DNA of 64,000 nt from Asterochloris sp. CNOR1 (lineage: Eukaryota > Chlorophyta > Trebouxiophyceae > Trebouxiales > Trebouxiaceae). The position numbers were made by a program, and so were the translations under genes. The notes under the pieces are model-generated. The model saw only the letters and a program-made list of their open reading frames with translations. It was not told where the DNA came from and ran no database searches. Location of the stretch: NCBI GenBank assembly GCA_963969365.1, contig OZ017752.1:124001-188000 (forward strand), in the 5' to 3' direction. This document shows positions 7,401 to 59,200 of the stretch, in pieces (position 1 is the stretch's first letter; every line of letters starts with the position of its first letter).

Positions 7401-10400
7401 CCTGTTGTGGTCAGATCCCTGCAGCAACGGCATGCAGTCAGGCCAGTGCAATGTGCAGCGTTTGGTCTTGTGGTCCTGTCCAGCCCTTGCCACCTACCTG
7501 ACACTTTGATGCCACTTGCTCTGCCTGCTGCAGACATATCATGCAGTGAACCTGGCGCCTAGGGCTGCCTGAGGGCCGCAGGCATACCGCATCCGCTCAG
7601 TGCTGTGCGCTGCAGATGTATGTTTCAGTGGGCCCCTTTGGCTGCCAGTCCCCTCATCGACTCAGGCAACCCACAGCTGCTCAGCGCTGTGCCCTGCAGA
7701 TGTACGACGCAGTGGACCTGGACCCCTACGGGTGCCCGTCCCAGCTGCTGGACGGCGCAGTGCAGGCGGTGGCTGACGGTGGCCTGCTGCTGGTCACCGC
7801 CACGGACATGGCTGTTCTGTGCGGGAACAATGCGGAGGCCTGCTGGGGAAAGTATGGGAGCTATCCCCTGCACAAACCCTACTGCCACGAGCAGGCGCTG
7901 CGCATCCTGCTGGCCTGCATAGAGGTGAGGGCTTGAACCCTTCTGCCACGAGCAGGCACTGAGGGCTCAAACTACAGTGCCATAAGCAGGCGCTGCGCAT
8001 TCTGCCGGCCTGCATAGAGGTGAAGGGCTGGGGCAATTGGGAGCAGTGCTGCGTGAGCCCCAGCTGCCTGCTGGCCTGCACACTTGGAGGCATTGGGCGC
8101 AGAGGTGTGAGAGCCTCAACTGCATGCTGGCTGATACCATGCAGACACAGTGTCTTGTGCTGCCATGAGCAGGCGGTGTGCCCTGTGCTGGCCTGAATAG
8201 AGGTGAGGGGCTGGAGGCATTGCGCGCAGTGCTGTGTGAGCCTCAACTGCCTGTTAGCAAGTGTCATACAGAGTGAGGGTGACAGGCTGCCATGAGAAGG
8301 TGCTGTGCCCTCCGCTGACCTGTGCAGAGGTGTCAGATTAGGGCTGGGTACAGTGATGTGTAGGTCATGGACTGCCAGCTGCCTGCTGCCACACAGGCTA
8401 TTGGTCCACTGGCTGCCATGAGCAGGCGCTGTCCCCTCGGCTGACCAGTGCAGAGGGAACAGGGGGCATGTACAGTGTTGTGTGAGTTTTGGATGCCTGC
8501 GGCCCGCTGCCATGAGCAGGCGTTGTGCACCCTGCTGACCTGCATAGGGCCAGATGCTGACCATGTCTGCTGCAGGGCCATGCAAATCGTTACAAGCGTC
8601 ACATCGTGCCTATGCTGTCGCTGAGCGTGGACTTCTACGTGCGGGTCTTTGTCCGAGTCTACACTTCCCCAGCTGCGGTCAAGGACTCTGCGACCAAGCT
8701 GATGCACGTGTACCAGAGCCTAGGGTGCGATTCCTTCTTCATGCAGCGTGTGGGGCGCAAGGTGGGATGCTGCCAGGGTCTCCTGAGGGTAATCCTGCTC
8801 TGCAGATCACCAGAAGGCTTTCGGCTGAGCCTTGGATGCAGCTACTGGCTCCTGCAGCGCGTCAGCACAAAGCTGGCGTCTGCAAAGGGCTGTCTGAGGG
8901 TCTTGCTGCTCTGCAATGCCACACAAAGACCTTGCCTGAGCCTGGGGGGCCTTCTCGTGTGTACTTTCTGTGCTGCGTGCAGGTCTGCACATGTCAGAAG
9001 GCTGTGTTCTTACCGTCAGCAGGGGCTGCATTGCTGTTCAACGAGACTTCCTCATGTGCCAGCGCATTCAGGCCTGCCTTCAGGAACAAGCGCCTGCCAA
9101 TGCATCTTGATCCTCTGCCATTTGCCTTTGGTTTATATGCCATGTGGTAACCGCTAAGAGGTGCTCAGCAGGCAGGCAGGCGGGTCAAGCATTTCGCATG
9201 GGTCATGCACAGAGGACACACACCCTGCTCCGTGCAGGTGAAGAAGGGCAATGGGTACAAGTACCAACCAGCCAGCGCTCCTCCAGTGCCCGAGCGCTGC
9301 AGTGAGACGGGGTCAGGGTTCTCCATGGGCGGCCCCTTCTGGGCAGAGCCCCTGCACAACATGGAATGGGTGCAGGGCGTGCTGCAGCATGTCAAGGTGG
9401 GCTAACCTGTCTCTTCTCAGAGGGAGAGGGTGTGGCTCCAGGGGTAGTGCCTTACGCTGTGTCTGATGGCACATGTCGGGCCACTGCTTTCGTGTGCTGT
9501 GCATCGTTTGTTGTTCGGAGACAGCAGAGTAAACAGCAGCACCCAAAAACCACTTTTACAAAGTGACTCCCTGCGCGCTCAGTTTCCCTTGCAGTGCATG
9601 CTGCACAGCACGACGCCTTTCAGGCACTGCCTCTTCACATGGGATCACGCAGCAGCACCTCCCGTCACAGGCCCCTCTGCTGCCCCTGGGTTTTTTAAAC
9701 AGGGATCATGCAGCCAGTCCTCACATCTACCCTGGATCTCAAGGCAGCCACCTGTACCTCTGCTGCAGCAGGGAGCGGTCCCTGCCCATGCCTCTCAGGG
9801 TCACTACCCTCCATCCCCCTAAGCGGCATCGCAACTCTCACTGCCCTGGCTTGCAGGACAACAAGCAACAGTATCCTGCACACGCCAAGGTCATCAGTCA
9901 CCTGTCAGCTGTGCTGGAGGAGCTCCCAGATGTGCCTTTGTATGTCAACCTGCACGACATGTGCAAAACCATCAAGGCCACCGCCCCCAAAGCAGAGACC
10001 TTCCGCTCCGCCATCATCAATGCAGGTGGGCTGCCCACAGCGATGCGCAGCTGTGAGGCATGAGCGGTGGAGCTCTGGGGGCACTCAGCTTGTCAAGGAA
10101 GGGCTGTCATGTACCCACAGTGGGTGTTGTTTTAGCTTGTTTTGGCATCATCAGCATCAGCAGTGCCAGCAGCACCAGCAGCCTGCCTTGCTGCAGGCTT
10201 TGTGCGTTTGGGACCCACACCATACCCCTTTGGCTGTCAGCAGTGCCAGCAGCACCAGCAGTGTGCCTTGCTGCAGGCTACCGTGCGTCGGGGACCCACA
10301 CCATCCCGCTTGGCTGCAAGACAGATGCCCCCTTCCACATCCTATGGGACATCCTTCGCTGCTGGGTGCAGGACCACCCCGTCAAGGGAGCAGACCCAGA

Positions 10401-10959
10401 GTCAGCAGGTGTGCCTGCCCGCCTGACGCTGCGGGCTGCATTGTAGCTTGGCTGCCTTGGACTTTGGGTTTGACCGGTGGCAGCCTGAGCACAAGGCCCT
10501 GACCCTGGGTCTGCCTCCGCCTCCATCTCTGCAAAGGGAAGGCTGATGGCAAAGCAGCCTGAGCACAGGGCCCACATTCAGTGTCTGCCTCTGCTCATGC
10601 AGCAAGCACTCTGCTGGTCAAGTCCCCTGAGCACGAGGCCTGAACCTAGTGTCTGCCTCCGCTAATGCAGCGGGCACTTTGCTGGCCAGGCAGCCTGAGC
10701 ACAAGGCCCACTTTCAGTGTCTGCCTATGCCTCTGCAGCGGGCAGACTACTGGCCAAGCAACCTGAGCACAAGGCCAACTTCAGCCGTGCCCAGGGGGCG
10801 GTCAGCGAATCCAAGCTGAAGCGGCAGACCAGGTTTCCTACTAACCCTGAGCCTAATTGGGGTCCCAAGCCCAGACATAAGAGAGTGAAGGTGGGGATCC
10901 TGCCCACAGGGTCAGTCTGCCCCATACCAACAGCCCTGCCTCCCCGTGTGCTTGAATGA
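4466..10959 (+). CDS. TRM1: tRNA (guanine26-N2)-dimethyltransferase, 559 aa, 11 exons
   Basis: Exons are 4466-4602, 4752-4839, 5505-5645, 6316-6429, 6669-6776, 7700-7924, 8576-8761, 9238-9396, 9857-10025, 10277-10408 and 10739-10959, in phase throughout. The family transfers methyl groups from SAM to G26 of tRNAs in nucleus, cytosol or mitochondria. Diagnostic pieces in order are NNVFYNPVQ and [12 protein letters not shown] (substrate side), [19 protein letters not shown] (SAM motif I, about 125-145), [18 protein letters not shown] (catalytic motif, about 200), [36 protein letters not shown] and the TRM1 C-terminus ([30 protein letters not shown]). Intron 2 uses a GC donor (CAG|GCAAGT). Introns 6, 7, 9 and 10 contain tandem copies of the neighbouring exon junction. 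The final few residues after GPKPRHKR are uncertain. The expected CxxC pair in the C-terminal part is incomplete (only one Cys in ERCSETG). Confidence 0.93.
7925..8575 (+). repeat. Tandem exon-end/donor copies in TRM1 intron 6
   Basis: The end of exon 6 (TGCCACGAGCAGGCGCTGCG to CATAGAG|GTGAGG, 7880-7930) recurs at about 7941 (partial), 7977, 8162, 8288, 8409 and 8509. The copy at 7977 keeps nearly all exon bases and a GTGAAGGG donor; the one at 8162 keeps GTGAGGGG; later copies decay (GTGTCA, then no GT). Copies are mostly about 100-185 bp apart. Because the array is free of stops on the other strand, it creates a long spurious reverse ORF. Confidence 0.85.
8762..9237 (+). repeat. Exon-end/donor copy in TRM1 intron 7
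   Basis: The end of exon 7 plus the start of the intron (GAGCCTAGGGTGCGATTC ... CTCCTGAGGGTAATCC, 8717-8800) is repeated once at about 8827-8925 as GAGCCTTGGATGCAGC ... CTGTCTGAGGGTCTTG. The copy carries the remains of the MQRVGRK codons (CTGCAGCGCGTCAGCACAAAG) but no usable donor. Confidence 0.65.
10139..10276 (+). repeat. Acceptor/exon-start duplicate before TRM1 exon 10
   Basis: CAGCAGTGCCAGCAGCACC, then TTGCTGCAGGCT and GGGACCCACACCAT, occurs once at about 10157-10225 and again at about 10237-10305. The second copy is the true acceptor and start of exon 10 ([13 protein letters not shown]); the first is an 80-bp upstream decoy that keeps its CTGCAG. Confidence 0.8.
10450..10770 (+). repeat. 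Four upstream copies of acceptor plus start of TRM1 exon 11
   Basis: CAxCCTGAGCACAAGGCCxACTTCAG, from the exon coding for [10 protein letters not shown] (true copy 10758-10792), is repeated upstream at about 10479, 10556, 10627 and 10689, about 70-80 bp apart. Each copy is followed by a degenerate GTGTCTGCCTxxGCTxxTGCAG acceptor-like stretch. This is a clean ladder of junction duplications. Confidence 0.85.
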
Positions 10960-12328
10960 GCTGGACTGGCACAACAGCCAGCCTCTTTGTGCACTTGTTA
11001 CGTGTCGCCCCTGCATGTCCAGGCACCCTGCCACACAGCCCATCCTCAGTTCTTGTGCCTTTGCACGCTGAGCCGGGCCGCCACACGGCCAGTCCTGCCT
11101 CTTCACATTCCTCCCTGGCAGTAATAAGAAAACAGCTGCGCAAGACTTGTGCAGTCCCACAGTCTCTAGCACAGTCCACAAGCTCCTGTCTGGGCTGCTG
11201 CAGGACCAAGTAGAGCCGCAGGCGGCAGCAACAGAGACACCTAATGTCGGCGACAACCTTACAGACATATATGACTGACACCCCTGGCCCTCTCTGACCC
11301 ATAGTCACAACTTTGATGACACTTTGCAGACCCTCACATTTGACCAAATGAGCTTAACAGCAGGCACCGGTGTATGACCTATGACCTTTGAAAGTTCATG
11401 ACTGCTGGGTGTTCATGCAGCTCACACACAGCAGGACCTGCAGCATCTGTCGGGATGTATGAAAATTTCCGGCAGCAGTCAACTGGACGAAGGATGAGCT
11501 CTAATTACTTTTATGCCCCCCTGCAATTGCGCGTTGGGGTTTGCTGAACTTCAGTCCTTCTTAGGCACTGTGACATTGCCACTGGTTTCCGGCCGCCCAG
11601 ACTCTGGATGTTCTGCTGTTGCGACAAACTTGCCTGCAGGCACAGAATGGTGTTGCACATGTTCTGCCAGCAGCAGTCAAGCACCTGCAGACCCACACGC
11701 AGCACTGCACAACAAGGGTGTCACCAGTGGCTCATCTTGGCAGATACGGTGCAATGAGTAGCGACGGTCTCTCACAAGCAGCAGACTTGGACAAATTGCT
11801 GGCAGCAGTGGTCAGGGGCACATCTACTCATTCAATGCTAAAGGCAACCCAGCGGAGCCTCACTTGCGGCATCTGTCCCAATTGCAGGTCCTGGCGCATT
11901 TGCTGTAGGGCTGGGGTTCACTTCCTTCTTCCCTGTGTCAGCCTCAGCATCCACCTTGGTTTTGGGATCCTGAGTTCCCTTGATGTTTACTCCACCAAGG
12001 CCTGCAAAAGCAGCACATGCATCAGATCTGGGTCACTGGGCATGCCCACACTCCAGCCTTGAACAAGCTCATGCATGCACGGCTCAGCATGTGCTGCCCC
12101 ACCTTCTGCTGTCTGCACGGTCTCCCCTTTCTTCATGCCGCCATCGTTTGTGAATGTGGCCTGCATGCTGAAGAAGCTGCTTCAGATGTTGATTGTTCAA
12201 TCTGCTGCAGCTGATGGCGACTGCTGAGTTTCTTATCCAAATTATTTACCGAGCTGCTGGGGCCACATCATTACTCTTGAGCAACTACTCCTGAGCAAAG
12301 GGTTCGGCATCTGATTCGTTGCACAGCC
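10960..12328. other. Intergenic stretch with no recognised gene
   Basis: About 1.4 kb lies between the TRM1 stop and the HSP20-like start. It holds only short unsupported ORFs on both strands. It is presumed to hold the TRM1 3' UTR and the HSP20 promoter. No repeat or RNA gene is seen. Confidence 0.6.
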
Positions 12329-15039
12329 ATGGACTCTGCATCTCTAGAACGAGTCAGGATCCTGTCTGGGCATTTGTTGCTGGAATGGGCCCCCACTGAG
12401 GCTGGCATTGCACCACAGGTACTGTCATGCCCTCTAGCCCACAGCTATGCTGGGCTCCAGCTGCATTGAGGTCATGCTGTTGCTGCTGCAGGACTGCGCT
12501 GCCACACATGCACCACTCTTCGCACGCTGTGCCACACAGACAGCCTATGCCCGGCCTGCTACTCTCCCCTCCAGCCAGGTGCAGCTCCTTTGCAATGGCT
12601 TCTCATGGTGCCCTCTGTCACCATGCACATGTGTAGCATTGCTGCACACAGTGCGTCCCACCATGGTGCAGGTCCCACTTCCACTGATCTCTTGCTACAG
12701 GTATCGACACCGAAGGTGCATCACATGAGGGAGAGGCAGGCCCGTGCCCGGCGCGGCGCCGTTCTGTTCACCCCTACCGCCCCAGGCACCTACACGCAGC
12801 ATGAGGCAGCCAGCTCCGGCGGGCCAGCCTTTGGCCGGCCCGCAAGCAAGTCTGCTGTTTCAGGTCAGCGGCTGCGCTGCAGCCATGCAAAGCGTCCTAT
12901 GGAGCAGAAAGACATGTACAGAACTCATACAGGGCAGCGGTTGCAAGCAGGACCTGGAGGTCTCTGCTCAGGCAAAGCTCGCAGGGTCAAGGGGAAAGCA
13001 GCAATTGTTCACAAGAATAATACAGAGCAGGGACTCCCAAGCCTGTCTTGACCATCCCTGCTCGGTAGGGCCTGGCTGAACGATTGTTGCTCCCCCCTTG
13101 CCCTGCAGCTTTGCCTGAGCAGGAACTTCCAGGTCTTCATGCCAGCAGACGCCGTCCCCTGTATTGATTTGTGAGTGTTCACTGCTACCTCTCTGCTCTG
13201 CAGCCCGTCTGAGCAGCTCCCAGGTAAGTTTGCCGGAAGACACCGCCCTGTATGGATCCTGTGAGAGGTTGCTGCTCGCCCTTGCCCTGCAGCTTGCCTG
13301 AAGGAGGCACTCCCAGGTCTTCTGTGCTGGTAGATGCTGCCCTGTTCCCAAAAGACACCGGCCAAATCTCCAGTGTTGTGCGTCAGTGCTGTTTCCTGTC
13401 TGTCCTGCAGCTTTGTCTGAATAGACACTCCGAGATCTTTACAATGGCACAGACACTGCTTTGTGCCGTTATACGTGAGCGACTCCTGCTCCCTGCCTGC
13501 TCTGCAGCCCGTCTGAGCAGGGACTTTCAGCTCTTCCCACTGGCAGACACTGGCAGCGCCGCGCAGGCACGGCCCCAGCGGCAGCTGTTCCCTCTGCTGC
13601 AGAGCCAGGGCTGCGTCCCACAGGTGGGCTGTCCTCTGCCCAGCCACTGGGCGCTGCGTAGTGTAGCAGCACAGTGGCTGTTGATCTGACCAGCAGTGAG
13701 GTCTCAACTGGGCCGACATGTTTTCAGACAAGCCATCTGCTTTATGCCTGACTGCTGCACACTGTGTGGTGTGGCAGAAAGTTTGCTGTTCTGCTATGCT
13801 GTACAACGTGGAATGAGAGCAGCTTCCACCCAGGCAGTCCAGATGTGCTTATCATCATTGGCCATCACACAAGTAGGGCCCAACTGCCCTCAGCATGGCT
13901 GCCAGCGGCCTGGGGCCTGAAAGCCTGACTGTTCTGCAGGTGGAAGTTGTTGAGCAGCAGGACGCCTACAGCCTGCTGGTGGCGCTGCCTGGAGTCGAGT
14001 CGAGTGCGGATGCTGTCTGCTTTTTGTTGTGAATCTTGCCAATGCTGGATCACAGCAAGGCCTGCCTGCTCTGATTTGCTTGTAAGCCTCTGTGATGGGA
14101 TTGCACTTGAGGTTTTACTGGCAGTCTTGCACTGGCATCCTGTCTGCCTTTCAGTGTCTGCTATGTGAGCCTGGCTGGCCAACATGGATTGTGTTTGTTT
14201 GTTTACTGCAGGGGCTCTGCGTGTGGAGGTCAAAGATGCCAGGCTCATTGTGAGGGGCAGCCGCCCAGTGCGACCTGAAGCAGGTGACACACCCTGGGTT
14301 ACCTGCATCAATCTTTGTGACACGGTGTGTGCAAGAGTGTCTAGCATTTTCTCAAAGCAATTGGTCAAGCCTGGCTGCCTGCGCAGTGACACCTCTGTGA
14401 CACAGCTTGAGCAAAATTGGCGGACATTGCCTCTTCAGCGGGTGCATCATCCTGGCTGCCTGCTCTCCCTCCTCAGACACAGTGTGTGTCAAGGTGTTGC
14501 TTGCTGCTGTGCAGCAGGTGACACACCCTGCGCTGACCTCTGTGACATAGTATTTGCAAGGGTGCTGAGCATCGCTCTTTCCTGGGTGACTCACATTGGC
14601 TGCTCCACCCTCTCCTGAGATACTGTTGCACGAGCCTGTGTCACGAACTGTCCCGAGCCAACGGGTCAACAACTGCACATGTGTCAGCTTACCCCAGTGG
14701 GATTATCTGCTGCTGACCTGTCAGCGCTCGCGACTTGTTGCTGCCTGTCTCAGCCAGCTGCAAGCAATCTGCTGCAAATCATAAACTGATGCATGGGCTG
14801 ATGCGTGCAGCTGTATGCTGCAGGCAGCAAGCTGCGTACAGACCTGTCATGGGGCCCCTTTGAGGCAGTGTTCGAGATCCCGCCCAGGGCAGACAGCCGT
14901 AGGGTCACTGCCTCCTACAAGCATGGCCTGCTGAAGGTGGGGTTGCCACCAAGCCTTGCTCAGGCAGTGCACCTGCTCTGGTCGCAGACGCTGTTTCAGC
15001 CTGTCATGTCCTGTGCAGGTGCTCATCTCCAAGATATGA
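12329..15039 (+). CDS. Small heat-shock-like (HSP20/alpha-crystallin) protein, 212 aa, 7 exons
   Basis: Exons are 12329-12418, 12701-12863, 13508-13623, 13940-14003, 14212-14283, 14824-14936 and 15019-15039, phases consistent. The C-terminal half (about 124-212) is an alpha-crystallin domain: VEVVEQQDAYSLLVALPGV, then ALRVEVKDARLIVRGSRP, then FEAVFEIPP and the A-x-Y-K-x-G-L-L family signature in VTASYKHGLLKV, ending VLISKI (an IxI-like tail). The N-terminal part (from MDSASLERVRILSG) is basic and low in complexity (RERQARARRG) and not recognised. Such proteins usually act as ATP-independent holdases. I see no transit peptide. Exons 1 and 2 are supported mainly by phase and composition. Intron 2 is filled with copies of the exon 3 junction. 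The stop lies 232 bp from the convergent UBC27 stop. Confidence 0.78.
12864..13507 (+). repeat. Direct and inverted acceptor/exon-start copies in HSP20 intron 2
   Basis: The true exon 3 acceptor (CTCTGCAG|CCCGTCTGAGCAGG, 13507) is preceded by copies whose acceptors end at about 13108, 13203, 13292 and 13410, about 90-120 bp apart. Each copy is followed by exon-like sequence matching the SRDFQLFPLADT codons. One further unit, about 12870-13035, is inverted: its reverse complement gives AGCTTTGCCTGAGCAGAGAC. The inverted unit and its direct neighbour could fold into an imperfect stem. The array produces a spurious repetitive reverse ORF. Confidence 0.8.
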
Positions 15040-15271
15040 TTCATTCCAGCTCTGCTGTGTATTTGTGGTTGCCCTGTTGCAAACTCACCAACAATTTGTA
15101 CCTCTGTCACATCATTGCACTAGTGTGTACACAATTTGAGCCTGAGCAATGCCTGTGTAAAATAGCCACCTAGATTGGCATGAAAGGTTGAAGGGGGGCC
15201 AGGGCAAGCAAATGCGGGCTTCAAAATTCAGCTGAGCTGAGAACCTGAGAGCTGGGTGTCTCTGGAGCATG

Positions 15272-17824
15272 TCAGGACCCCAGCAGCGCTTCCAAAGCAG
15301 CAGTCTCATCCCCACCTGACACCTGCAGGGCTGTGACGGCTGCATGGGCATCAAAGCCCATTTCTGTCAGCCTTTTCACCTGCAGTTGCCACAAATGAAA
15401 GCATTTTGGCAGGTGAACTGGCACTCACGCTTGCTGTGCAGCGCCTGCGCTCACATGTGCAGCAGCAAGGTCTTGGGAAGGTCTCACACCTGGTAGCAGA
15501 TGCTACCCAGGGTAACACAGCTGGCTGGGCAACTCACAGCTTCATCCTGCGGCCCTGTTTTCCGGGCATATGTCTGCGTCCAGAGCCGGGCCTGTTGCTG
15601 GAACGCTCGCTGATCTGTGTTATACTGCTTGGCCACCACTGCGTCCTGCAGGGGGACATGACAGCGTCGCACTGCCGCAGATCTGTGCGAGCAGCCCCTG
15701 CTGCAGATGCATGCCTGCTGGCTGGAAGGGGTCAGCCACACCATCAGCAGTGGCGCCGCCGATGCCACCCTGTGCAGCAAGTGCATGGCTTCTGCTGGAG
15801 AGAGAAAGCAGGCCGACAGCTGGCATTGCCCCCTGCCACCAGGCAGCTACCCTATATACATGCTTAGTTAAGTAGTTAGCCCAGTAGCGTGTCCCATTGC
15901 TTGCAGCTCTGAGACCCTTGCAAGCTTGATAGGCAAGGTGATAATCCCCTCTGTTTCAAGATGGCTTCCAAGACACAACTATGCGCTGCTGGGCAGGCTG
16001 GCAAAATGAAATACAACCAACACAACCATCTTAAATCACCTGAGGGTCCCCTGGCTCCGGCGAAGACAGCAGCGCCTGCAGGCTGAGGAGAGCCGTCTTC
16101 AGCGTCAGAGCGGGGCTCCACTGGTCCTGCATGGCACCGTGTACACTGTGAGAGCTCAGGCGGCGCAGTTGCCGTCAGGCGTGGGACTCGCCCGGTCCTG
16201 GAATGGCAGCCAGGACACTTTCAGAGCTCAGGCAGCCCAGCAGCAGGTGACATGCAAGCTCCACTGATCCTGCACCGCAGCGTGCAAGCTTTGAGAGCTC
16301 CAGTAAGCTACAGGGCAGGGAGACAAATGGTCACTGCGTGGACCAGGCCGGCTGAAATAGCCTCAACGGCCCACTGTGGGGGTCTGCCGCTCTCGTGGGG
16401 CACAATGAGCCTGGAAGCTTGGATACGTTAGGCAGTCTGCATATGTGGTTCTCCATTAACAGCCATCTGACAAGCCCTGCGGGAGGCACACACCTTCAGG
16501 ATGTCCAGGCAGATGGCTCCATTTGCGCTGCTGACGTTGGGGTGCCTGCGGTGGCAGCAGTCCTTGTTCAGGGCTCCTCAAACATCCCTGTGGCTCCTCA
16601 CAAGGCAGCCTGGTGCACTGGATGGGTGCAGCATCTGCTGGAGAGGCTGCTGCAGTTTGTGCTGGAGCTTGAAACAAGTTCAGACAGACAGTATGTGTAT
16701 CTTCAGGAGCAGAAGCACCCTGGAGCCAATTTCAGTGAGGCTACAGAGCATGCCGGGGCAAAAGCATGTCGGCCACAGGCAGCTCACCAGACTTTGGTGG
16801 TGAACCTCATCTTGGGCGGGACAAAAGGGTACTGCTGCCCTGCAGGGGGGAGGAGAGGTGGTGTGAAGCATGTGACCGGGCAACAGCTTGATGGCCGGGC
16901 AACAGCTTGGTGTCAAGGCAGGCCGAAGATGCCTGTCGGCCTCCTGGCAGGCTGTGACACTGACAGGCACATGAAAGGCAGCGCTGCGCAGTATCATGGC
17001 CAAGTCAGCCTCCGAGCAGCCAGGCAGTATTGATGAGGCAAAAATCAGAGGCAACTTGCAAAGGAGCAGCTTGATCAGGCTTGTACTCCACAGGGTTCAC
17101 ATGTATAAGAGGGCATTCCTATGCTCTGCCAAGCTGATATCACACAAGCACATCACGTTGGTGTGATACCTCTATGCAAATGCTGTTTGTACAGCAGCGC
17201 TTACCTAGCTGGATGTCCACCACAAAGAGACCTCCCTCATAGGCTGTGTCCTTGGGACCTGCACACAATCACTCCAGCTTAATGCCAGGCTGATGTTAGC
17301 AGAGACAACCAAGCGTGTGTTGGCTGTTGGCACACTTGAGCAGATGCATGGCAGGACCTGCATGCTGCCATCCGTCTTTGAGAAGGACAGAGGCAGGGCG
17401 CGAGGCAGCAATCACCTTCAACAAAGCCAGTGAGCGCTGTCAGGTTGCCTCCTGACTTGACATGAATGCTCACGCCGCTGGCCTTATCCCTCTCGATTTC
17501 TTTGAGTTCTTTCTGCAGGGTGAGATGGCTCACATCGTTCGCAGCGGCAGCAGGCATGGATGCACTGAACAGGGCACTGCTGGGTGAAGTATTACTGACG
17601 GCGTCTTGACATGATAATGCACTCCTGGTGCAGGCACAGCGAGGCTGCGCACTGCCGAAGCTTGTGCACAGCAATGTGCAGATCGATGGCAGCAGATGGG
17701 ACATGTTCACGAGGCAAAGCTGGCTGCCAAAATCAGCTTCGCCTGCTCCACAAGGCATGCAAGGGCGTGCAAATTGATGCTGTCCAGAGCTGGTATGTAC
17801 CTGTATTCTGCCGAAGTCTGCCAT
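15272..17824 (-). CDS. UBC27: Ubiquitin-conjugating enzyme E2 with C-terminal UBA (UBC27/UBE2K type), 193 aa, 8 exons
   Basis: Exons (minus) are 17801-17824, 17416-17512, 17205-17258, 16788-16839, 16494-16545, 16040-16126, 15538-15645 and 15272-15379, all in phase. The protein begins [17 protein letters not shown] and has [25 protein letters not shown] and the catalytic Cys88 in [13 protein letters not shown], then [20 protein letters not shown] 35-residue UBA domain follows ([19 protein letters not shown], then [14 protein letters not shown]). Length and order match Arabidopsis UBC27 almost exactly; UBE2K-type E2s build Lys48-linked ubiquitin chains. It is head to head with DDI1, 205 bp apart, and convergent with the HSP20-like gene. 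A 24-nt first exon carries just eight codons. Confidence 0.95.
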
Positions 17825-18029
17825 GGGCTGCTGCTGCTGTGAGCCACTGCTGCAGCTCCGCCAGCTGAGGCTCGATCTGCTTCAGGGGCTTCAAGGCTAC
17901 CTTGGATCTATGCGATCAGAGACATGATTGAGCCTTGATGAGGCCATCCATCTGCCCACTGGTGCACAACTTGCGAATTCAGCCCTAGCATTACCCCAGA
18001 CCAGCAGACTGTCAAAGTTGCTGCCTCAA
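17825..18029. promoter_or_regulatory. Shared 205-bp divergent promoter region of UBC27 and DDI1
   Basis: Two ubiquitin-system genes start outward from this short spacer, so it is inferred to act as a bidirectional promoter carrying both 5' UTRs. I see no TATA box. It contains CTGCTGCTGCTGTG next to the UBC27 start and a GATCTATGCGATCAGAGAC segment near the middle, neither assigned to a known factor. Confidence 0.55.
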
Positions 18030-48072: not shown

Positions 48073-51000
48073 ATGACCAAGCTGCTGCAGGGCAAGGTGT
48101 GCCTGGTGACAGGTGACTAGTCACGCATGACAGGCTGTGCCCATGCTGTAAGCTTCCAGACCACTCATCCCCCTTCACTCAAATGTGCAGGAGGAGGCCG
48201 AGGCATTGGCAGGGTGGCTTTGCACGACGCCATGTCATGCTGACCTGGACTAGCTGCACCATCATACCAAGTCTTTTAACACAAGCAATGGGTGCCTCAG
48301 CCAAGGTGGCTCTCAGGGCGCATGAAAGGCGCCCACACAGCGTGGGGCAGCTGGCAGCTGTCTGAGTCATCAGGCATTGTCACGCCACGAGGTGAGAGCA
48401 GCTGCGCCTGCAGGCGATCGCAGAGGCCTTCGCGGCTGAGGGCGCCACGCTGCACCTGGTGGCGCGCTCCAAACACCAGCTGGACGAGGTCAGTAAGGCA
48501 CACTGCTGGGGGTTGGTAGCTGTGACTGGAGTGCAGCATGCTGCAGCAGGGGAGATTTTAGAAGGAAGGTATCCAGGGGCAGTGGGCGAGTGTTCTGGTT
48601 GCCTGAGCTGCATCAGGCCAGTGCTGCTGTGTAGCTGGGCTGCAGCCGGTCATGTGAAGCAGGCCTGCATGAACATGATCACAAGCTCACAGGTGTCACT
48701 GTGGCCAATTTTCAGTCTGGGCTGCACAAGGTTGCGTGCCGGCCGCGTGGGACCTGCACAGCAAGACTTCAAGGAGCCAGATGGCTGCAGCTTCTGCGTT
48801 GGCTGGCTGGCTGTCCGTGTCAGCTTATTCGCTGACAAGGAGTGTTAAGGCCTGAGGAGGTTGCTACAGGGCTGCTGCCGGCCGGGGTGCTGCCTGGCAT
48901 GTTGGCTCGTCAGATGCCTGCAGGGTGCCTGTTCATACTGACTTTGCATACGTGATGGCGATGCTCTACCTGTGCAATTGGCCACTGCCCTACTAGAAGG
49001 TCTGAGCTGCTGCTGACGGAGTACCCACGTATCACCGGCACTGCACATTGCAGGCAGCCTGCATCAATGCAATGGCCATGCTGCTGGTGGGCTGACACTG
49101 GAGAGCGTTCAATCAGCTAATCTAACAGTGATGCACACTGTGAGTTAGTTGGTGAAACTCTCTAGTGTCTGGCTTCTACCGTGGCATGCAGGGCTGGCAG
49201 TGTGCGGCTTGTTTGTCTGGCCACTGCCCCCAACCGCAGTGCTGTGCTGCATTGCTGCACTCAGGAGTCTCAAGTATCATGCAATTAGTGACCACTCTGC
49301 AGGCAGCCTGCATCATTGCAATGCCCAGGCTGATGGTGCCTGACACTGAGAGCTCGATCCTCAAAATCAGTGTGCATCACTGTGAGTTAGAGGGTAGAGC
49401 TCACATGTGTCACGCTACATCTGTGGCATGAAGGGCTGGCAGTGTGCTGCCTGTTTGTCTAGGCACTGCCTCCAAACACAGTGCTCTGCTGCGCTTACAG
49501 TCAGGAATCTCAGGAATGACGTGATCAGTGCCCGTCGCAGGCAGCCTGCATCATTGCTACGCTATATGGTCCATTGCTATGCCCATGCATGCTGCTGGTG
49601 GCCTGACACTGAAACTTGATACGCAACCTCACGTGATGCGAGTTGAGCAGCAACTTTTCCAGTTTCACGCTATACCTGTGGCATGGAGGGCTGGCAGTGA
49701 TCTGCCTGTTTGTCTGGCCACTGCCCCCAATTGCAGTGCTTTGCTGCGCTGCTGACATTTTGCTCAGGACTTTCACTTTCAATGCAAGTGTCAGGCCCAG
49801 CCTGTGGCACGAACGGCTGGCAGTGTGCTGCCTGCTCGTCTGGCCACTGCCCACAATCGAAGTGCTCTGCTGCGCTGCCGACACTTCACTCAGGAGTCTG
49901 AAATATGACGCAATCAGTGCCCGCTGCAGGCAGCCTGCATCACTGCAATGCCTATGCTGCTGGCGGCCTGATGCTCGCTGAGTTCAACCCTTCAACCCAC
50001 AGTGATGCACACTCTGAACTTGAAAGCGGAGCTCACATGTGTCAGGCTCTGTGCACCGCATGAAGGGCTGGCAGTAAGCTGTCTGTATGTCTGGCCACTG
50101 GCCACTGGCCCCAGTCACAAAGCTGTGCTGCGAACATCGCACCACGAATTTTGGGTGTAACGCGATCAGTGTCCATTGCAGGCAGTCTGCATCACTCCAA
50201 TGCCCATGCTGCTGGTGAGCTTTGCCTTCCAACCCACAGTGGTATTGTGCTGCGCTGCTGAAACATCACTCAGGCATCTCAAGTATGATGCAAGCAGTTC
50301 CCATTGCAGGCAGCGTGCATCAGGCCACCAGCAGCACTGTGGCTGCAATGTCAGGCTCATGTTGTGGCATGAAGGGCTGGCAGTGTGCTGCCTGTGCTGG
50401 CTGGCCACTTTGCAGGGCTGTGCTGCTGCTGACACCCCACTCAGGACTCTGAAATGTGGGCAGTGTGCTGCCTGTGTGGCTGGCCACGTTGCAGGGCTGT
50501 GCTGCTGCTGGGACCTCTGCAGGCAAAGGTGGACATTGTGTGTTGTTGCCGCACGACATATGTGTCTGCCCTGAAGAGCGCATGTGATTGCCATAGGTAC
50601 ATGCAGGCATGCTGCCTGTGTATGCTACAGGTACATTAGCAAACATGCTGCATGCCTGGACAGGAGGTGGTTCTTGCCACATGAAGCTGAGTCAGCAGGA
50701 GGCGAGCAGCGCCCCTGGCTAACCCTTTGCCATAGCTAGTATTGGCCAGTAGTGGTCAGCTGTGAGCATCAAGTTCATGCTTGCAGGGGTGGCGGCTGCA
50801 CACATCACCTTATCGAGAGCGCAGGCTGTGCTCAGCCCACACTTTCAATAGCACGTGATGCATGATAGTGCCTGGTCCAAGACCAGGGGCGCTGCACACG
50901 CTGACACATGCTGCTGCTGTCTTTCTTCACACCATAGTCATGCCGCCCTGCTCTGCAGACGGTGCTGTAATCCAAGCTGTGGCATGGCAGAAGTCGATAT

Positions 51001-54000
51001 GTATCTTGTTGCAGCAAGAATATGTCTGCCATGAAGCGCATGTGTCTTTGTGTGGAACTACACACAGGCATGCTGCCTGTGTATGCTTCCCACACAAGGA
51101 TGTGTGTGCTTCATGCCTGGACAGGAGTTGGTTCTTGGCACACGAAGCTGAGTCAGCAGAAGGCGAGCAGCGCCTCTGCTCCCTGGCTGTCCCTTTGCCA
51201 AAGCTGGTATTGGCAGGGGTGGTCATGTGGGCATCAAGGGCGCATTTGCTAGAGGTGGTGGCTGCTGTGCAGGCTGGCTTGGAAATGCCAGATGATGCTA
51301 CAGGTGCACTTGTGTTGTTCGGGGAGGGCCCCAACACTAGAGCCATGACAAAGACTGCTGCCCCCAGCGCCTGATCAAACGCCCAGGTCTCAGAAGCACA
51401 TGAAGCAATGGTGTTGCCCAGTCCAAGGCCGGGTGGCTGCACACGCTGACACACGCTGTGTTGCTGCCTTTCCTTCTTCAGACCAGAGTCATGCTGCCCT
51501 GCTCTGCTCTCAGACAACCGTCATGCAAAGCCATGGGTGCGGCAAAAGGTGACATGTGTTTTGTTGCAGTGAGACAGATGTGTCTGCCATGAAGCGTACA
51601 CGTTCTTGTCAGGAAGTACATGCAGGCATGCCGCCTGTGTATGCTTCCCACACAAACATGTGTATGCTTCATGCCTGGAGGAATTGGTTCTTGGCACACG
51701 ATTCTGAGTCAGCTGAGGCGGGCAGCGCCTCTGGCCCTTTTTATGTCCCTCTGCAAGCTTGGAGGTGCCAGCTGCTGCCAGCTGATGCCACAACTGCATC
51801 CTTGTTTTGCCTGGACGCCCCCAGAGATGGAGGCATGACAATGTCTGCTGCACTCACCGCCTGATCAAGCGCACTAGTTGAGCACAGCCCACACTCTCAG
51901 AAGCACATGACACAATGGTGTTGCCCGGGCCAAAGCCAAGGGCGCTGCACATGCTGACACATGCTGCTGTTGCTGCCTGTTTGGAAACCAGAGACATGCT
52001 GCCCTGCTCTGCAGGCAGTGCTGTCATCATCAAAGCCACAGATGCAGCAAAAGTTGGTATGTCTTCTGTTGCAGCAAGGCTTTTGTGTCTGCCATGAAGC
52101 GCCCTTGTGATGGTCTCGAATGCACGCAGGCATGCTGCCTTTGTGTGCAAATGCTGCCACAGGGTCGCTTCATGCCTGGAGGAATCGGTTCTTCTTGGCA
52201 CGCAGCGCATCATGGCTCCCTGGCTGTCCCTCCGCAGAAGCTGGTCTGCCATGAAGCGCCCATGTGGTGGTCTTGGACTACATGCAGGCATACTGCCTGT
52301 GTATGCTTCAAAGACCACCACGAAGACGCTTCATGCCTGGAGAAATTGCTTCTTCTTGGCAAGCAGCGCATTCTGGCTCCCTGGCTGTCCCTCTGCCAAC
52401 CCTGGCATTGGTTCTAGTCGATGTGTGTTTGCGTGCTACTATCACTCAGATCTACGGTGTTTTGCCCTGCTCTGCAGGCGGTGCTGTTATGCAGGGCCAA
52501 GGGCGCGGTCAGCTGACATGTGCCTCGTTGCTGCTGTCACTCCAACTCAGGTGTTGCTGATCTGCTCTGCAGGCAGTGCTGTCGAATGCCATGGTAGCAG
52601 CAACCGTCGACATGTGTCTTGTTGCTGCCGTTCGCCAGACCCAGCTTCTGCTGCTTTGCTCTGCAGGCGGTGCTGTCAGTGAAAGCCATGGGCCTGGCAA
52701 ATTCTCAGGTAACATGAAGGGCTTCAGTGCGGGTTGACTCAGCCATATGTCAATGTTTTCGACCTGTGGCTGAGTCAGTCAACACTGAAGCCCTTCATGT
52801 CACCTGAGAACAGCAATTGTATCACACGAGGGGCTCATGGGCTCAACACTCTAGCGCTTTCATTTAATGTTTGCCACCAACGCCGTCCTCAGTGATCAGA
52901 AAGGTCTCAAGTTACACAAATCAGGATTGTGCTGCTGTTACTCAGATCACAATCGTGCTGCTCTGCTTTGCAGGCGGTGCTGTCATGCAAGGCCAAGGGC
53001 GCAGCTGAGGTGGATTCGCACACCAGCGACCTGACGAGCGCCTCGGCCATTGACCAGCTGGTGTCCACCCTCGTGCAGCGCCACCAGGTGCGCAGAACTA
53101 TGTTCAGAGGAAGCTGTGACGGTTATTGCGGGAAGTAGTTCCCTCCTGCAGCCCCACAAGGTGCGCAAGGTCTTTTGCGTGTGACAGGTGCTACTGGTAA
53201 GCATTGGTGTCGGACGGGTGTGAAGTCAAAGGCAGGGCTTACACATGAGCTGGGAGAGAAGTGCCTACGCGTGAGCAGAGTGAGGGTGCTTGTCCCGCAG
53301 TCATTACAGGTCGCTGCCAGACTCAAAAATTTGTCTCCGCGCAGGCGACCTTGACATGCTGTGATCATGCTTAGAAGGCAGCTGGTCGGCAGCTGCTGCG
53401 CATATCAGAGGTCCAGCAGCAGCTGCCTTTGGGGGCAGGATATATGTGAGCAGCTGTCTTTGGGGCAGGATAAATGTGTGTTTGCTGCATGTCTTCCGCA
53501 CGAGCAGTGCTGCAAGATGTGACATTCCCCTGCTTGCAGAAGGTGGATGTGCTGGTCAACAACGCTGGCAAGTTCCCTGGCAAGCCGGGGCCCACCAATG
53601 GTACTGCATTTAGCCTCATGTGCTGACTTGAAGGCTGACTTTCAGGACTGTGCTTGTGGGTCTCCCAGATTAGTAGGTGGCTGCCAGTTCCTGCTGCGCA
53701 GTGCGTGATGTGTAGTACTGCCGTTGAACCTCTCGACCTCTCAAGAACCCACCCTTGACAGCAAGTTGTTGGCTGGCTAAGGGAGTGGGCAGTGGCCAAC
53801 TCCTGTTGCGCCTGGCGTGGTCAACAGGATGGTCTGTGCACACTGCGTAGCGGCCCAGCGCCTGCACAGGGCTCTTTCTGCGCACTTCATGCACCCCAGC
53901 GTCTGCACAGGGCTCTTTCTGCGCACTTCATGCACCCCAGCGTCTGCACAGGGCCCAGCGCCTGCACAGGGCTCTTTTGGCACACTGCCTGGCGGCGCAG

Positions 54001-56112
54001 CGCCCGCACAGGACTCTTTTTGCACACTGCCTGGCGGCACAGCGTCTGCTGCACAGGGCCAGCAAGCATCTGCAGCATCCAGCTTGACCACTTTGGAGGC
54101 TTCTCAGACAGTTAGGCCTGGTCACACCCGCAGTAGAGCCCCTGTTCCACTTCAGATGTGACACTTTAGGGCTATGTCCCCCTTATGTCAGGCCTGTCAG
54201 GCCTCACGCTGTGTTTGCTGGGTGGTTGTGTGACAACCCACTGTTTGGGGTTGATGAGTGCTCCCGCAATGAGGCTGATGGTGTCCCCCTGTCACGTGTG
54301 CAGGCGACATCGACGAGTGGCGGACCACCATGCAGCTCAATGTGCTGGCCCCCATGCAGCTGACCAGCCTGTTGGCGCCGGGCATGCAGGAGCAGCAGTG
54401 GGGCATCATCATCAACATGGGAAGTGTGGCAGCAGGTGGATGGCCCAGTAACTACAGTGTCCCAGAGTGTAGAGTGGGGTGACATGCTGTCGCTGAGCTG
54501 CCACTGGTCAGCAGCTCGATGAGCAAAGTCTTTGAGGCACAGAGGCACCAAGGGCTGATCTCTGGCAACTCTTGTGGCTGCACCTTTCCCAGAACCGCAG
54601 CTGCATTCTGGCAGCTTTACTTGCTTGTATGATGTCTCAATGCGGGCAGCAGACTGGCTGCTTAACGACGCATCGCTTGGTGAGACTAGCTGCACAGCAC
54701 CCGCATGAGGAGCGCTCTGGAGCCGTGTGTCAAAAGATAGGGCAGGGTGTGTGACAGTCTGAACACTTCGTCAGCTACAGCTGCAGTGATTATGCGCCTC
54801 CAGTCTGTTGCTGCATGGCAGCAGCAGGGGCAGTTTGTCCTGCTCATGTTATGTCTCAAGCACGCATATTGTCACATGAGCCGAGACGGCGCATGTATGC
54901 CATGCAGCTGCATGATGACGCTGATGTCTGGCCGCATGCACACTTCTTCAGCCAAGATGAGCATCTTGGCTGCAGAGGTGTGCATGCGGCACGGCATTGG
55001 GCTTGTCCAGCAAAGTGGCTGCTGCACCATGAGGCTCCCTTCACCACCCTTTGCACGCCTTAGAACTTGCTGCACAGCACCAGCGGGGAGCGTTGTGGAG
55101 GCATGTGTCAAAGCATAGGGCAGGGTGTACATTCAAGAGCAACAGCTGCAGTCATTATGCGCCTCCAGTGCATTGCTGGCAGCAGAAGGGGCTCATGTTT
55201 TGTCATAGCACACATATTGTCACGTCAGCCAGGGCGGCGCATGTCTGCCATGCAGCTGCATGACGCTGACATCTTGCCACACGGGCACTTGTTCTGCCAA
55301 AATGCTTGGCTGCAGAGGTGTGCGTGTGGCAAGGCATGCCGCGTGTCCAGCGAGGTGGCTGCTGCACCGTGAGGCTTCCTTCACAACCCTTTGCACGACT
55401 TGAGGCGGTGCCTGCACAGACCTGCGTTCCATCAAGCTGTGGTGGCCTGAACTCTGGACAGCTCCCTCCCTTAAAGTGGAGAGCTTCCCGCCTGCAGTGG
55501 ACCCTCTGCCTGGAGCAGCAGCTCATGTGGCCAGCAAGCATGCTGTCAGGGGCTGGTCTCTGTCTTGCTATGGGGTGAGCTTGTCGCCGTTGTTGCGCCC
55601 CGTCACAGGGTGAGGGCTGCTGACTCTGAAGTGGCTGGCCTGGCATGGCAGAGGCGTGCGCAGATGCCCCCCTTTGGAGCCTGCCTGACAAGGCAATTGT
55701 CACCCAGGAAGCTGCCTCTCCGGCAAGAGCAAATGGATCTGCCATTCTGTGTCCTCTGAGGTCTGCCTGGTGAGCTGATTCAGCAATGAGCGTCATAAAG
55801 ATGTCTGCTGCAGGCTCTGCGCAATGACAACATCAAGGTGGTCTTGATCAATCCGGCAGCAGTCAAGACAGGTAAGATTTTCACATTGGGTTGTCAGTGT
55901 GATGACCTGCTGACTGTCAGGCTGTCAAATGCTGTTCAGACTCTTTTATGGTGCGTGCAGACATGATTGCTGGCCTGGGTTTCATCCCTGAGAGATGCCT
56001 CCTGCCAGAGGACATTGCTGAGGCAGCCATGCTGGCAGTGCATACTTCACAGAACGCGTGCCCCCAGGAGATCACTGTGCGGCTCACAAAAAATGCAATG
56101 AAGACTGGATAG
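48073..56112 (+). CDS. Classical short-chain dehydrogenase/reductase, 243 aa, 9 exons, catalytic Tyr replaced
   Basis: Exons are 48073-48112, 48191-48213, 48414-48488, 52974-53087, 53540-53600, 54304-54435, 55498-55574, 55814-55871 and 55961-56112, all in phase. The Rossmann nucleotide motif TGGGRGIGR is at about 13-21, AEGATLHLVARSKHQLDE follows, NNAG is at 91-94, TTMQLNVLAPMQLTSLL is next, the serine is in NMGSVAAG, and VVLINPAAVKTDM lies after the active site. The family oxidises or reduces small alcohols or carbonyls with NAD(P)H. The catalytic YxxxK reads H158-VAS-K162 (AAHVASKHAVRGWSLS; codon CAT at 55524-55526), so the essential Tyr is His. No targeting signal is evident. Intron 3 is 4.5 kb of degenerate tandem repeats. 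The stop lies 162 bp from the convergent lipase stop. Confidence 0.88.
48489..52973 (+). repeat. Giant SDR intron 3 built of two degenerate tandem repeat families
   Basis: From about 49050 to 50560 a unit with GGGCTGGCAGTGTGCTGCCT, CTGGCCACTGCCC, GTGCTCTGCTGCGCT and GCAGGCAGCCTGCATCA recurs six or more times at roughly 120-260 bp. From about 50860 to 52400 a second family of about 500-bp units recurs (CACACGCTGACACATGCTGC, TGTCTGCCATGAAGCG, GCATGCTGCCTGTGTATGCT). The exon 4 acceptor and first codons (CTGCAG|GCGGTGCTGTCATGCAAGGCC) are echoed at about 50953, 52003, 52474, 52565 and 52661 before the true one at 52974. The repeats are likely expanded junction copies. No protein-coding capacity is supported. 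Confidence 0.8.
52702..52810. repeat. Near-perfect 44-bp inverted repeat (hairpin) in SDR intron 3
   Basis: The left arm 52702-52745 (TTCTCAGGTAACATGAAGGG to GACTCAGCCA) and right arm 52767-52810 pair over 44 positions with 39 matches, separated by a 21-nt loop. The arms end in TTCTCAGGT/ACCTGAGAA. No clear target-site duplication is seen. It could be a foldback or MITE-like element, or a structured intronic RNA. Confidence 0.85.
53850..54062 (+). repeat. Minisatellite in SDR intron 5
   Basis: CTGCACAGGGCTCTTTCTGC, then GCACTTCATGCACCCCAGCG or the variant CACACTGCCTGGCGGCxCAGCG, is repeated about five times with units of roughly 45-50 bp. There is no exon homology that I can see. Confidence 0.75.
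54690..55400 (+). repeat. Two-copy tandem duplication of about 375 bp in SDR intron 6
   Basis: The segment from CTGCACAGCACCxGC through TGTGTCAAAxGATAGGGCAG, CAGTCATTATGCGCCTCCAG and GCATGCCATGCAGCTGCATG occurs at about 54690-55060 and again at about 55070-55400. It immediately precedes the active-site exon at 55498. Confidence 0.75.
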
Positions 56113-56274
56113 GCTTCACGAAGGCATGCCACACCTCAGAACGGGAGCTGGATGAGCAGTTGAACAAAATGCATGGAAGTGTATCGCAGCAGTGCATCTT
56201 GACACTGTGAAGTGCCTGAGTTAAATTTCAATGTTAAGCAAATGAATGATGAGGGCGGGGAGGTCGGGTTGGGT

Positions 56275-59200
56275 TTAGCAGTCTTCATGCTTCAGAATCT
56301 TGTGCTCTGGGACCTCAAACTGGCGCCTCAGCTGCATCTCATAGTCTGCAGGCAGAGCAGAAAACATTGACTCAGTAAAAGATATGAACATCACCGGTAA
56401 CACTGCTAACAGAGGCAAGACCGGGCAGTAACCCAGCCTCCTGTGCATTGCCATGATGCTCTACACCAGGGGAAAGAGCTGCTGGTAACATGTGCTGAGC
56501 CCTGATGTAGACTCCCTGCAGCCCTGGCACCATGCTCTGCCTGGGCTCTGAGGCCCAGCAGAACTATTCAAGAGCAGCACAGCACAAACACCGCGCAGCT
56601 GCTGCTCTTGCATGTTGTGTGCAGCCCTGGCATCAAGATCATGAAGGCACTGGAGGCAGGTCACTAAACCCAGCCATCACATACAAACCATCATGCCCAC
56701 CTGCATGGTGGTGCAGCGCCCAAAATCATTTTAGCAGACCCAGACTCTGGCCTGATGTGCTGGGCCACAGCAGACAGTGACAAGCATTGCGCTGGGCCAG
56801 ATGAGATGCCAGCGTTACCTCTGGGGGAAGCCGCTGCTGAGTTCTTGCAGCCTGATGGCGGCACTCAGCCAGGGCACTGTCCACAGCTGCAACATCATAG
56901 CCTGGACATGCCTGAACCTGACCTGGCAACCTGACCGCGGCAGTCAGCCAGGGCACTGTCCACAGCTGCAACATCATAGCCTGGACATGCCTGAACCTGA
57001 CCTGGCAACCTGACCGCGGCAGTCAGCCAGGGCACTGTCCACAGTTGTCCACAGTCGCAACGGCACAATTTAAGACATCCCTGCACCTGACCTGGCAGCC
57101 TGATGGTGGCAGTCAGCCAGGGCACCGAGCCCAGATGCAACACAACAAACCTAAAGAAGAACCCCTGAACCTGACCTGCAGGGAAGTGGTCGCTCAGTCC
57201 CGGCAGCGTGAGCAACAGGGCCAGCCGCTCCAGCGCGCGCAGCACCGTCTCGTCTCGCCGCAGGAGGCTGTTTGCAGTCTTGAGCAGCTGCAGGGGCAGG
57301 TAGCCCCAGGTTTCGTTGCGGCGCCAGCGGCTGATGTCCGCCTCGTCGAACAGCACGCGCCCAAAGCTGGTCAGGAAGACCTCCTTGGGAGGGTGGCAGT
57401 ACTCCTGCAGAACCAGCATCACATGTGCGCGGGAGAAGCTCAGTGCCATGCCACCCTGAGCGTCTGGAGAGGGCAGGTCTGCATGGGCAGAATCTACTGC
57501 TGCTCACCAGAAATTTGGGGGGGATCTTGGGTATCACGTCAGCTCCATGCACCAAGCGCCACATCCTGCCGACAGGAGAAGAGAGTTGCTGTCAGCTTCC
57601 AGATGCGCTGAGTGCCAGGCGGATTACTGCATGCACATTCCGCAGGGCCAAGCGTTGAGAGCATACTGCTGCTCACCGCCCTTTGCATGCAGTGGTTGCA
57701 TTACTGAGAGCCTCCCATCTGCTGCCTGGCCATGCTCGCCGGGGCAGCAACCCTGCCACGGGAGGTGCATCATCAACACAGGCCAAGCAATCTGCTTGTA
57801 CCTTGCTGTGCATGCATGTGCCATCCCTCCAGTGTCCAGGTTGCGACAGGTCACCAACTGCGCACCTCTGGGGGTAGGTGGACGCCAGGTGCTGGCAGAA
57901 GCTGGAGTCCCCGATGCGGGGGGCTCCATAGGTCCACATGCCAGCCACGCGGCCTGACAGCTCCTTGTGCCCCTCTGCATGCAGCGCCTGTGCAAACACG
58001 ACCGCCAGTGCTCCTCCCAGGCTGTGGCCTGCACATGCAGGACATGACTGCTTGAGCCCAGAGCGCCTGAGCAAGCACCACAGCCAGCGCTCCTCCCCTG
58101 CTTTAGTCTGCACATGCAGGATGTGAGCCCGCAGTGCCTCGGCAAGCACCACCGCCAGTGCTCCTCCCAGGCTGCAGCGTGCACGGCAGGACATGACCGC
58201 TTGAGCCCAGAGCGCCTGAGCAAGCACCACCGCCAGCGCCCCTCCCCTGCTGTGGCCTGTTATGGGCCACCATGTGCACCTGAGCAGCCAGAGGAGGCGC
58301 CGCACAGCACCTGCTTTCCTGAACATTGGCTTCTGCAGAGGCCTAGATGGCCATTGCAAAGTTTGTTGAAGATGCTGTCCCCAGGCAGTGGCCTGCACGG
58401 CAGCAGAGGCACAGACCGGGCAGTGATGACACACTGCAGGTGTTGTACAGCGCATGCACAGTCACCACAGGCAGATGGTGTTTGCTCAATTGCTGTTGCT
58501 AGGGTTGTGGCCTGCATGGTGTATACACCAAGGACCCAGTCCATTGCAGCCCTGTCAGCAGCTTGCATGCTTTACAGCAGCTCCTACAGGGTTATGCAAA
58601 GCCAGAGTCAGTATATGCCAAGGCCATAGACATGGACAGCAGCTGTGCATGTGATTGAGCAACAGGATTCCCCAGCAGGCAAAGAGCATCGCCCTGTGCT
58701 CATTGTGGGCGCCTCTATGAAAGACGGCATAGCATCTCTTCAACTCACTACCCTGCAGAGTAGTTTTACTAACTGGCCGGCACCAGGCTGCCCAGGGAGC
58801 TACACCTGTGGCATCCCAGTGGCAGGTAAACTTGCAAGGTGGCTGACATGCAGACCTGCTGCAGCATCCTTGCCAGTGACAGACCTCCACAGGTGCTGCC
58901 TTGAAAGGTCTCAGGCAGCGTGCACACCTGTGAGGTAGATGACTCTGCCCTCAGCATGCTCCTCCAGCGCTGCCACCAGCCGCTCAAACAGGGTAGACCC
59001 CTGCTCGCTGCTGCGGTACATCAGGGCTGCAGCAGGCGGCACATCACTGTCAGCACACCCCAGTGCTGCCACAAGATTGCTGTCGGCCACAAGGTCAGGC
59101 GAACAGGCCCCTGCAGCACCCTGTGGCGTGCAGCACAGAGTGCCCACCATGTAGACAAGCTACATTGGTCGTTACCACCTGGTCTTGCAGTTCTGCAGCA

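Follow-up and report, generated by a model that had tools for sequence, protein, structure and literature searches.

Decayed tandem copies of splice junctions inside introns of the green alga Asterochloris sp. CNOR1

How introns lengthen without transposons is, to our knowledge, poorly explained. The question is raised by a stretch of 64,000 nucleotides (nt) from the genome of Asterochloris sp. CNOR1 (contig OZ017752.1, C7 below, positions 124001-188000; this whole stretch is called the window). A reading made from the sequence alone had noticed in at least 12 of its introns tandem, decayed copies of the adjoining splice junction plus coding sequence, and had suggested a specific mutational process at junctions as their cause. 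Direct junction-spanning copies that lie beside their own exon, decay and carry frameshifts are present in all four genomic regions sampled here. They are probably ordinary short direct tandem duplications that survive in introns, those that span a splice junction lengthening the intron.

The 56.4-Mb genome is assembled in 21 contigs, from which the window, its 20-kb flanks, a 200-kb piece of C1 and a 50-kb piece of C12 were sampled. Gene models came from a gene finder trained ab initio on 354 kb, which predicted 56 genes and 674 introns, 100 of them in the window; each test described below dropped introns outside its length limits and exons shorter than its probe. For the window, 40 nt of intron plus up to 60 nt of exon were aligned to the rest of the same intron (at most 600 nt), and a match was called a copy when it beat all 200 control stretches taken from C1 and C12 introns. 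Among the 89 introns and 173 junctions that could be tested, a copy was called for 28 junctions, which belong to 26 introns, as compared to about 0.9 junctions expected. At least 12 nt of exon are included in 25 of the 28 copies, and the weakest have z scores of 3.4 and 3.6. Alignments were displayed for 17 junctions, the youngest copy being about 94% identical.

When introns are matched by position, 11 of the 12 introns named in the sequence-only reading are among these 26 (in its numbering TRM1 introns 6, 7, 9 and 10, HSP20 intron 2, DDI1 introns 5, 6 and, weakly, 9, the last intron of the response-regulator gene, SDR intron 3 and one of two lipase introns). Its more detailed claim that the copy nearest the exon is the best preserved in TRM1 intron 6 did not hold, as the copies at 7965, 8160 and 8507 are 85, 84 and 88% identical over 65, 50 and 41 nt, respectively; an outward polarity of the TRM1 copies was rejected on these values.

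The pattern is not peculiar to the window. Over all regions, the exon edge (probes of up to 60 nt of exon) beats all 60 controls when compared with its own intron at 53/602 acceptors and 50/599 donors, about 10 being expected for each. In the length range of 150-1600 nt, a junction copy with a score of 20 or more is present in 21/82 introns of the window, 8/56 of the flanks, 37/309 of C1 and 15/66 of C12. Recurrence across genes, which had been proposed from the window, extends to the other regions: outside the window, 22 of 48 genes have at least one match at junction offset 60.

Similarity is confined to the adjoining intron and to the direct orientation. Probes with 40, 60 and 80 nt of exon matched their own introns in 47/654, 51/632 and 40/569 cases, and counts were near zero in non-adjacent introns of the same gene (1/622, 2/601 and 1/539), in introns of other genes (1/654, 2/632 and 0/569) and in inverted orientation (1/654, 0/632 and 0/569). 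With 60-nt exon-edge probes, non-adjacent introns of the same gene likewise matched at the level of chance (5/420 and 8/427; chance 1.6%), and mismatched pairs gave no match (0/204) in the test with position-matched controls described below. All 40 controls are beaten by 8.5% of tiles within 300 nt in the upstream direction, by 3.2% at a distance of 600-900 nt and by 2.6% in inverted orientation, with 2.4% expected by chance. The sequence-only reading had stated that it would fall if junction similarity were no higher than between random exon-intron pairs; own introns lie clearly above such controls, and the excess of direct, adjacent matches bears out its view that the lengthening repeats arise by local tandem duplication. 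The best spacings of 57 arrays range from 63 to 545 nt.

The copies are decayed. Crossing copies were counted at 43 acceptors and 39 donors, among 106 junction windows with a copy. The exon part of 75 copies contains 125 gaps, of which 109 cause a frameshift; a gap occurs in 55 of these copies and a stop in 15. The reading frame is therefore not kept, unlike that of alternative or mutually exclusive exons, and the distance to the real junction modulo 3 (22/35/25 of 82) has no frame preference. Predicted introns have a mean length of 348 nt and occupy more than 60% of the sampled sequence in the ab initio models; GC content and the approximately nine introns per gene given in the consulted part of the A. 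glomerata genome paper (PMC6652019) agree with the sampled genome. A junction copy within 110 nt goes with a longer intron (median 358, n=41, vs 294, n=390, for the others), as growth by one unit would give, although longer introns also offer more room for a match.

A simple mechanism would account for these observations. Short direct tandem duplications with a spacing of about 60-550 bp (mostly 60-400) would arise along the genome, plausibly from staggered breaks or paired nicks that are filled in and then end-joined, and introns would tolerate them. In the case of a unit that includes a splice junction, splicing would presumably continue at the outer site (the downstream acceptor or the upstream donor), leaving the mRNA unchanged. 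The intron would then be longer by one unit, the copied inner junction would decay as a decoy together with its slice of exon, and repeated events could generate arrays. It is proposed that duplications touching a junction accumulate because splicing that ignores the inner copy makes them nearly neutral.

Several other origins can be weighed against this. Selection might retain the copies as alternative splice sites, poison exons or splicing regulators, and one could cite the retention of AG in 34 of the 43 crossing acceptor copies and of GT in 26 of the 39 donor copies, as well as an identity of 0.81 in the 8 intron nt adjoining the junction, compared to 0.65-0.69 deeper in the intron (76 copies, those in which the junction is ungapped). 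However, the retention is near that expected, and the identity peak fits, if the real site is constrained while its copy decays freely, which would raise identity beside the junction. Interior AG, CAG and GT controls were kept in 5/10, 7/12 and 9/15 cases, numbers too small to tell the readings apart and taken from shorter search stretches than those of the junctions. With the frameshifts, the gaps and the lack of frame preference, a selected function is very unlikely. An annotation artefact, with false introns in coding repeats or false exons within arrays, can point to ab initio models and to three SDR exons and one HSP20 exon that resemble called copies. Against it stand an independent DDI1 protein that lacks the copies, the support of Pfam domains, the growth of the junction excess with the coding score of the exon and the frameshifts in the copies, and this reading too is very unlikely; coding tandem repeats with false introns were rejected on the frameshifts.

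The copies might also be remnants of intron gain by tandem duplication under the Rogers model, in which the intron itself is born from exon copies. The tandem-duplication step is common to both, and the potato case, as far as the consulted text goes, involved a duplicated intron-exon boundary. The copies found here nevertheless contain sequence of an existing intron, and similarity at both ends was found in 0 of 546 introns (0 in controls), so that intron birth of this type was rejected despite a small excess at either end (6 vs 1 in controls) and is extremely improbable. A transposon or introner origin was rejected since introns of other genes gave 0-2 matches per offset; dispersed copies, the hallmark of introners, were sought as direct matches beyond 3 kb, which number 2, 6 and 0 in three regions. 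Inverted duplication was rejected on its near-zero matches.

The remaining alternative is a junction-targeted mutational process, in which breaks or nicks tied to exon edges (through transcription, splicing-coupled structures or a composition step) would duplicate donor and acceptor segments preferentially. Its support includes the comparison of junctions with intron interior. Over equal search stretches, 61/411 junction probes and 82/1446 interior probes matched; with position-matched controls the counts were 63/411 and 106/1928, a ratio of 2.79 (gene bootstrap 1.75-4.89), and the excess in this test rises with the coding score of the exon. Outside the window, the excess persists when low-complexity probes are removed and is larger for exons with a high coding score; the ratio in that test is 2.95 (1.6-5.4; P(ratio<=1.43) 0.01). 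The use of all interior offsets there gave a ratio of 2.9 (gene bootstrap 1.7-4.9; P(ratio<=1.43) 0.004, P(ratio<=2) 0.08, the last of which leaves room for a twofold effect of persistence alone). By position, the match rate outside the window stays mostly at 2-4% in introns (extremes 0.5 and 4.4) and rises to 7.2, 8.1 and 7.0% for junction probes with 40, 60 and 80 nt of exon, donors and acceptors alike, with 4.0% for wholly exonic and 1.8% (6/341) for intergenic probes.

Some of these results weigh against ordinary duplication as a sufficient account. Simulated uniform duplication yields ratios of 0.90-1.43, below the excess observed outside the window, where at score 20 the junction count is 38/335 and the interior count 43/2340. 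The exon slices in crossing copies are short (median 55 nt vs 70-71 under uniform placement; Kolmogorov-Smirnov p 6e-5 and 2e-5) and more uniform in length than such placement predicts, in a test whose simulated copies were slightly better preserved than the real ones (0.78-0.80 vs 0.77); this could come from selection against long decoy exons or from junction-centred duplication. Because exons change more slowly, the exon side of a copy should be better preserved, and in all sampled regions it is not (0.697 vs 0.676 on the intron side, with the exon side higher in 36 of 76 copies). The gene models, moreover, are ab initio and some of them merge genes.

Other tests give little or no excess. 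Probes of 60 nt match at equal rates at exon edges (44/528 and 55/519), at intron edges (35/437 and 39/437) and in the interior (22/249). A tile scan at z>5 likewise gave 3.86% for intron, 4.06% for mixed and 4.10% for intergenic tiles, but it looked upstream only, so that part of the donor copies were counted as intron tiles. The 57 arrays comprise 32 at junctions, 16 within introns, 5 intergenic and 4 exon-exon, as compared to 23.9, 19.7, 5.5 and 8.0 under random placement. The window by itself has a junction-to-interior ratio of only 1.3-1.6 at score thresholds from 17 to 30; the ratio for copies of at least 0.80 identity is 0.59 in the window, 2.62 in the other regions and 1.45 over all data (p 0.12), and at score 30 the ratio over all data is 1.50 (p 0.23). 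Matches are also concentrated in some genes; one C12 gene has them at 9 of 17 junctions. The CTGCAG motif has no special role, since interior windows centred on it match at a rate (16/188) like that of six other motifs (2/38 to 16/166).

Junctions may be over-represented because copies next to a conserved exon are lost more slowly, because duplication truly favours exon edges, or for both reasons. Since loss and free mutation can affect the intronic copy alone, the survival time of junction copies might be as much as doubled. The preservation of the exon side that slower loss should leave was not seen, which keeps a true hotspot possible. The interpretation given by the sequence-only reading thus stands in part: recurrence across genes and local tandem duplication are supported; an approximately threefold junction excess exists outside the window, several tests find little or none, and a junction-specific process is possible and unproven. 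Targeting by breaks at exon edges appears rather unlikely. We also regard as doubtful the general proposition that exon-intron junctions, donors and acceptors alike, are tandem-duplication hotspots that copy approximately 50 nt of exon together with the adjacent intron sequence, lengthen introns genome-wide and continually seed decoys. Ordinary tandem duplication, with survival in introns, remains the preferred reading for the features collected in Table 1.

Table 1. Junction copies and arrays in the window (positions count from its first letter; "new" marks features added to the list of the sequence-only reading, whose intron numbers are in brackets where they differ).
Feature	Position	Strand	Identity	z	Remark
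TRM1 intron 2 (5646-6315), acceptor-junction copy	6198..6269	+	0.79	11.8	includes 60 nt of exon; new
TRM1 intron 4 (6777-7699), acceptor-junction copy (new)	7579..7652	+	0.80	13.1	
TRM1 intron 5 [6] (7925-8575), donor-junction copies	7965..8549	+	0.86 (nearest copy)	12.9	at 7965, 8160 and 8507, repeated intron between
TRM1 intron 6 [7], donor-junction copy	8827..8912	+	0.68	8.6	
TRM1 intron 8 [9], acceptor-junction copy	10157..10236	+	0.90	21.0	80-nt unit
TRM1 intron 9 [10], acceptor-junction array	10479..10784	+		16.9	spacings 74, 142 and 210 nt
HSP20 first intron (12864-13203), acceptor-junction copy (new)	13088..13163	+		7.6	
HSP20 intron 2 (13261-13507), acceptor-junction copy	13375..13458	+	0.73	8.2	
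E2-UBA gene intron 5, acceptor-junction copy	16173..16236	-		9.0	new
DDI1 intron 3, acceptor-junction copy	19411..19466	+		6.9	new
DDI1 intron 5, acceptor array	20487..20709	+		13.3	two decayed copies and real junction 20678/20679
DDI1 intron 6, acceptor array	21638..21760	+		6.8	51-nt unit; probed copy has 10 nt of exon
DDI1 intron 9, weak donor-junction copy	23480..23513	+		4.8	25 nt of exon
So-called pseudo-response-regulator gene, last intron, acceptor-junction copies	25160..25464	-		4.8	
Intron 31084-31524, donor-junction copy	31386..31449	-		11.4	56 nt of exon; new
Intron 38442-38889, acceptor-junction copy	38503..38567	-		8.2	new
SDR array, several copies of acceptor and exon head	49046..53002	+			
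SDR intron 8, tandem duplication over acceptor 55315/55316	54685..55401	+		13.1	380 nt; new
Lipase intron 56346-57175, array	56844..57178	-			79-nt unit, essentially intronic (3 nt of exon)
Lipase intron 58029-58927, acceptor-junction array	57981..58259	-	0.89	25.4	spacings 150 and 79 nt

Proteins of the window were matched by the Pfam domains TRM, HSP20, UQ_con/UBA, Asp_protease/UBA, adh_short, Lipase_3, Glyco_hydro_1 and GPR1, and Pfam domains were also found in four genes with junction copies outside the window. No response-regulator domain was matched by Pfam in the window proteins; the name pseudo-response-regulator comes from the sequence-only reading. The TRM1 protein can be aligned to solved tRNA methyltransferases. 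Over 88% of its length, the DDI1 protein shares 98% identity with the database entry jgi/Astpho2, a name that stands for an Asterochloris lichen alga; from exon 3 onward its exons match this independent protein except for a six-residue insertion, and its real junction at 20678/20679 agrees with database protein P0001. The amino-end difference and the insertion read as splice choices. At DDI1 intron 4 (window position 19690) the model has a GC donor, and the six extra database residues fit a donor 18 nt downstream. The lipase intron 56346-57175 had a weak donor-side copy (z 5.6) with an earlier set of controls, which has no entry in the final list based on 200 controls.

Some predicted exons themselves look like decoys. 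The HSP20 exon 13204-13260 and the next exon both begin ctgcag/CCCGTC (the slash marks the junction), so that the former may be a copy of the head of the latter, and the SDR exons predicted at 50182-50214, 52478-52507 and 52667-52708 are probably decoy copies of the following exon head. Such exons call for caution in the automatic annotation of this genome. During self-training of the gene finder, the acceptor consensus sharpened to CTGCAG/G from starting values that held CAG/G only.

The load of tandem duplication differs several-fold between regions; the contig that holds the window is 3.3 Mb long, with the window at 124-188 kb from its end. In the window, 12.6% of the sequence is covered by near direct repeats, compared to 1.3% in the C1 piece and 1.9% in the C12 piece, and intron tiles at z>5 amount to 8.0% in the window, 4.6% in its flanks, 2.9% in C12 and 2.5% in C1. 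Much of the repeat load of the window is supplied by the SDR region at 49-53 kb. Near-palindromic matches number 9 in the window, 2 in the C1 piece and 0 in the C12 piece; self-complementary palindromes are located at window positions 12951-13135, 52702-52810, 26819-26907, 54931-54990, 23657-23692, 22015-22073 and 1515-1572, one of them a perfect palindrome of 36 bp. Positions 228-848 and 3845-4442, in or next to a kinase-like gene, form a diverged direct repeat of some 600 bp with 65% identity.

The nearest known case, already published, is the gain of an intron in potato through tandem duplication of an intron-exon boundary, described in a paper whose consulted text also mentions an 83-bp tandem duplication within an intron. 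As in that case, duplication across an acceptor junction copies the intron tail and the exon head. In potato, as described there, the result was a new spliced intron, whereas the algal copy seems to be unused and it is an existing intron that lengthens; more than one quarter of the tested window introns are affected here. The Drosophila introns ascribed to tandem duplication (PMC2891723) similarly involve regional tandem duplication with splice-site-like sequence, but according to the available passages they occupy new positions derived from exonic proto-splice sites, and the footprint around them is not conserved. Fill-in by Pol alpha-primase at staggered breaks causes small tandem duplications in mouse and human cells (PMC8355091). 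These events, which need no repeat or homology, resemble the algal ones in being short and direct; they occur in mammalian cells, the excerpts seen make no link to splice junctions, and the same action in the alga is conjectural. Mutually exclusive exons (PMC6071210) also arise by duplication of an exon with adjacent intron sequence, but the portion consulted concerns whole functional exons, as opposed to the partial, decayed copies of the alga.

In the open-licence literature searched on intron gain by tandem duplication, no description of pervasive decayed junction copies within introns was found, and the word "tandem" is absent from the consulted part of the A. glomerata genome paper (PMC6652019). 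The growth of introns by junction-crossing duplication is a real and recurrent route, undescribed in the literature searched, and a variant of known tandem-duplication processes. If such duplication is this common, it would provide a simple and testable route to longer introns, along with natural collections of duplicated splice sites whose outer copy is presumably the one used, a resource for analyzing how spliceosomes ignore near-copies of a real site. Should the bias towards junctions turn out to be mutational, the structure of genes would be tied to the breakage of DNA.

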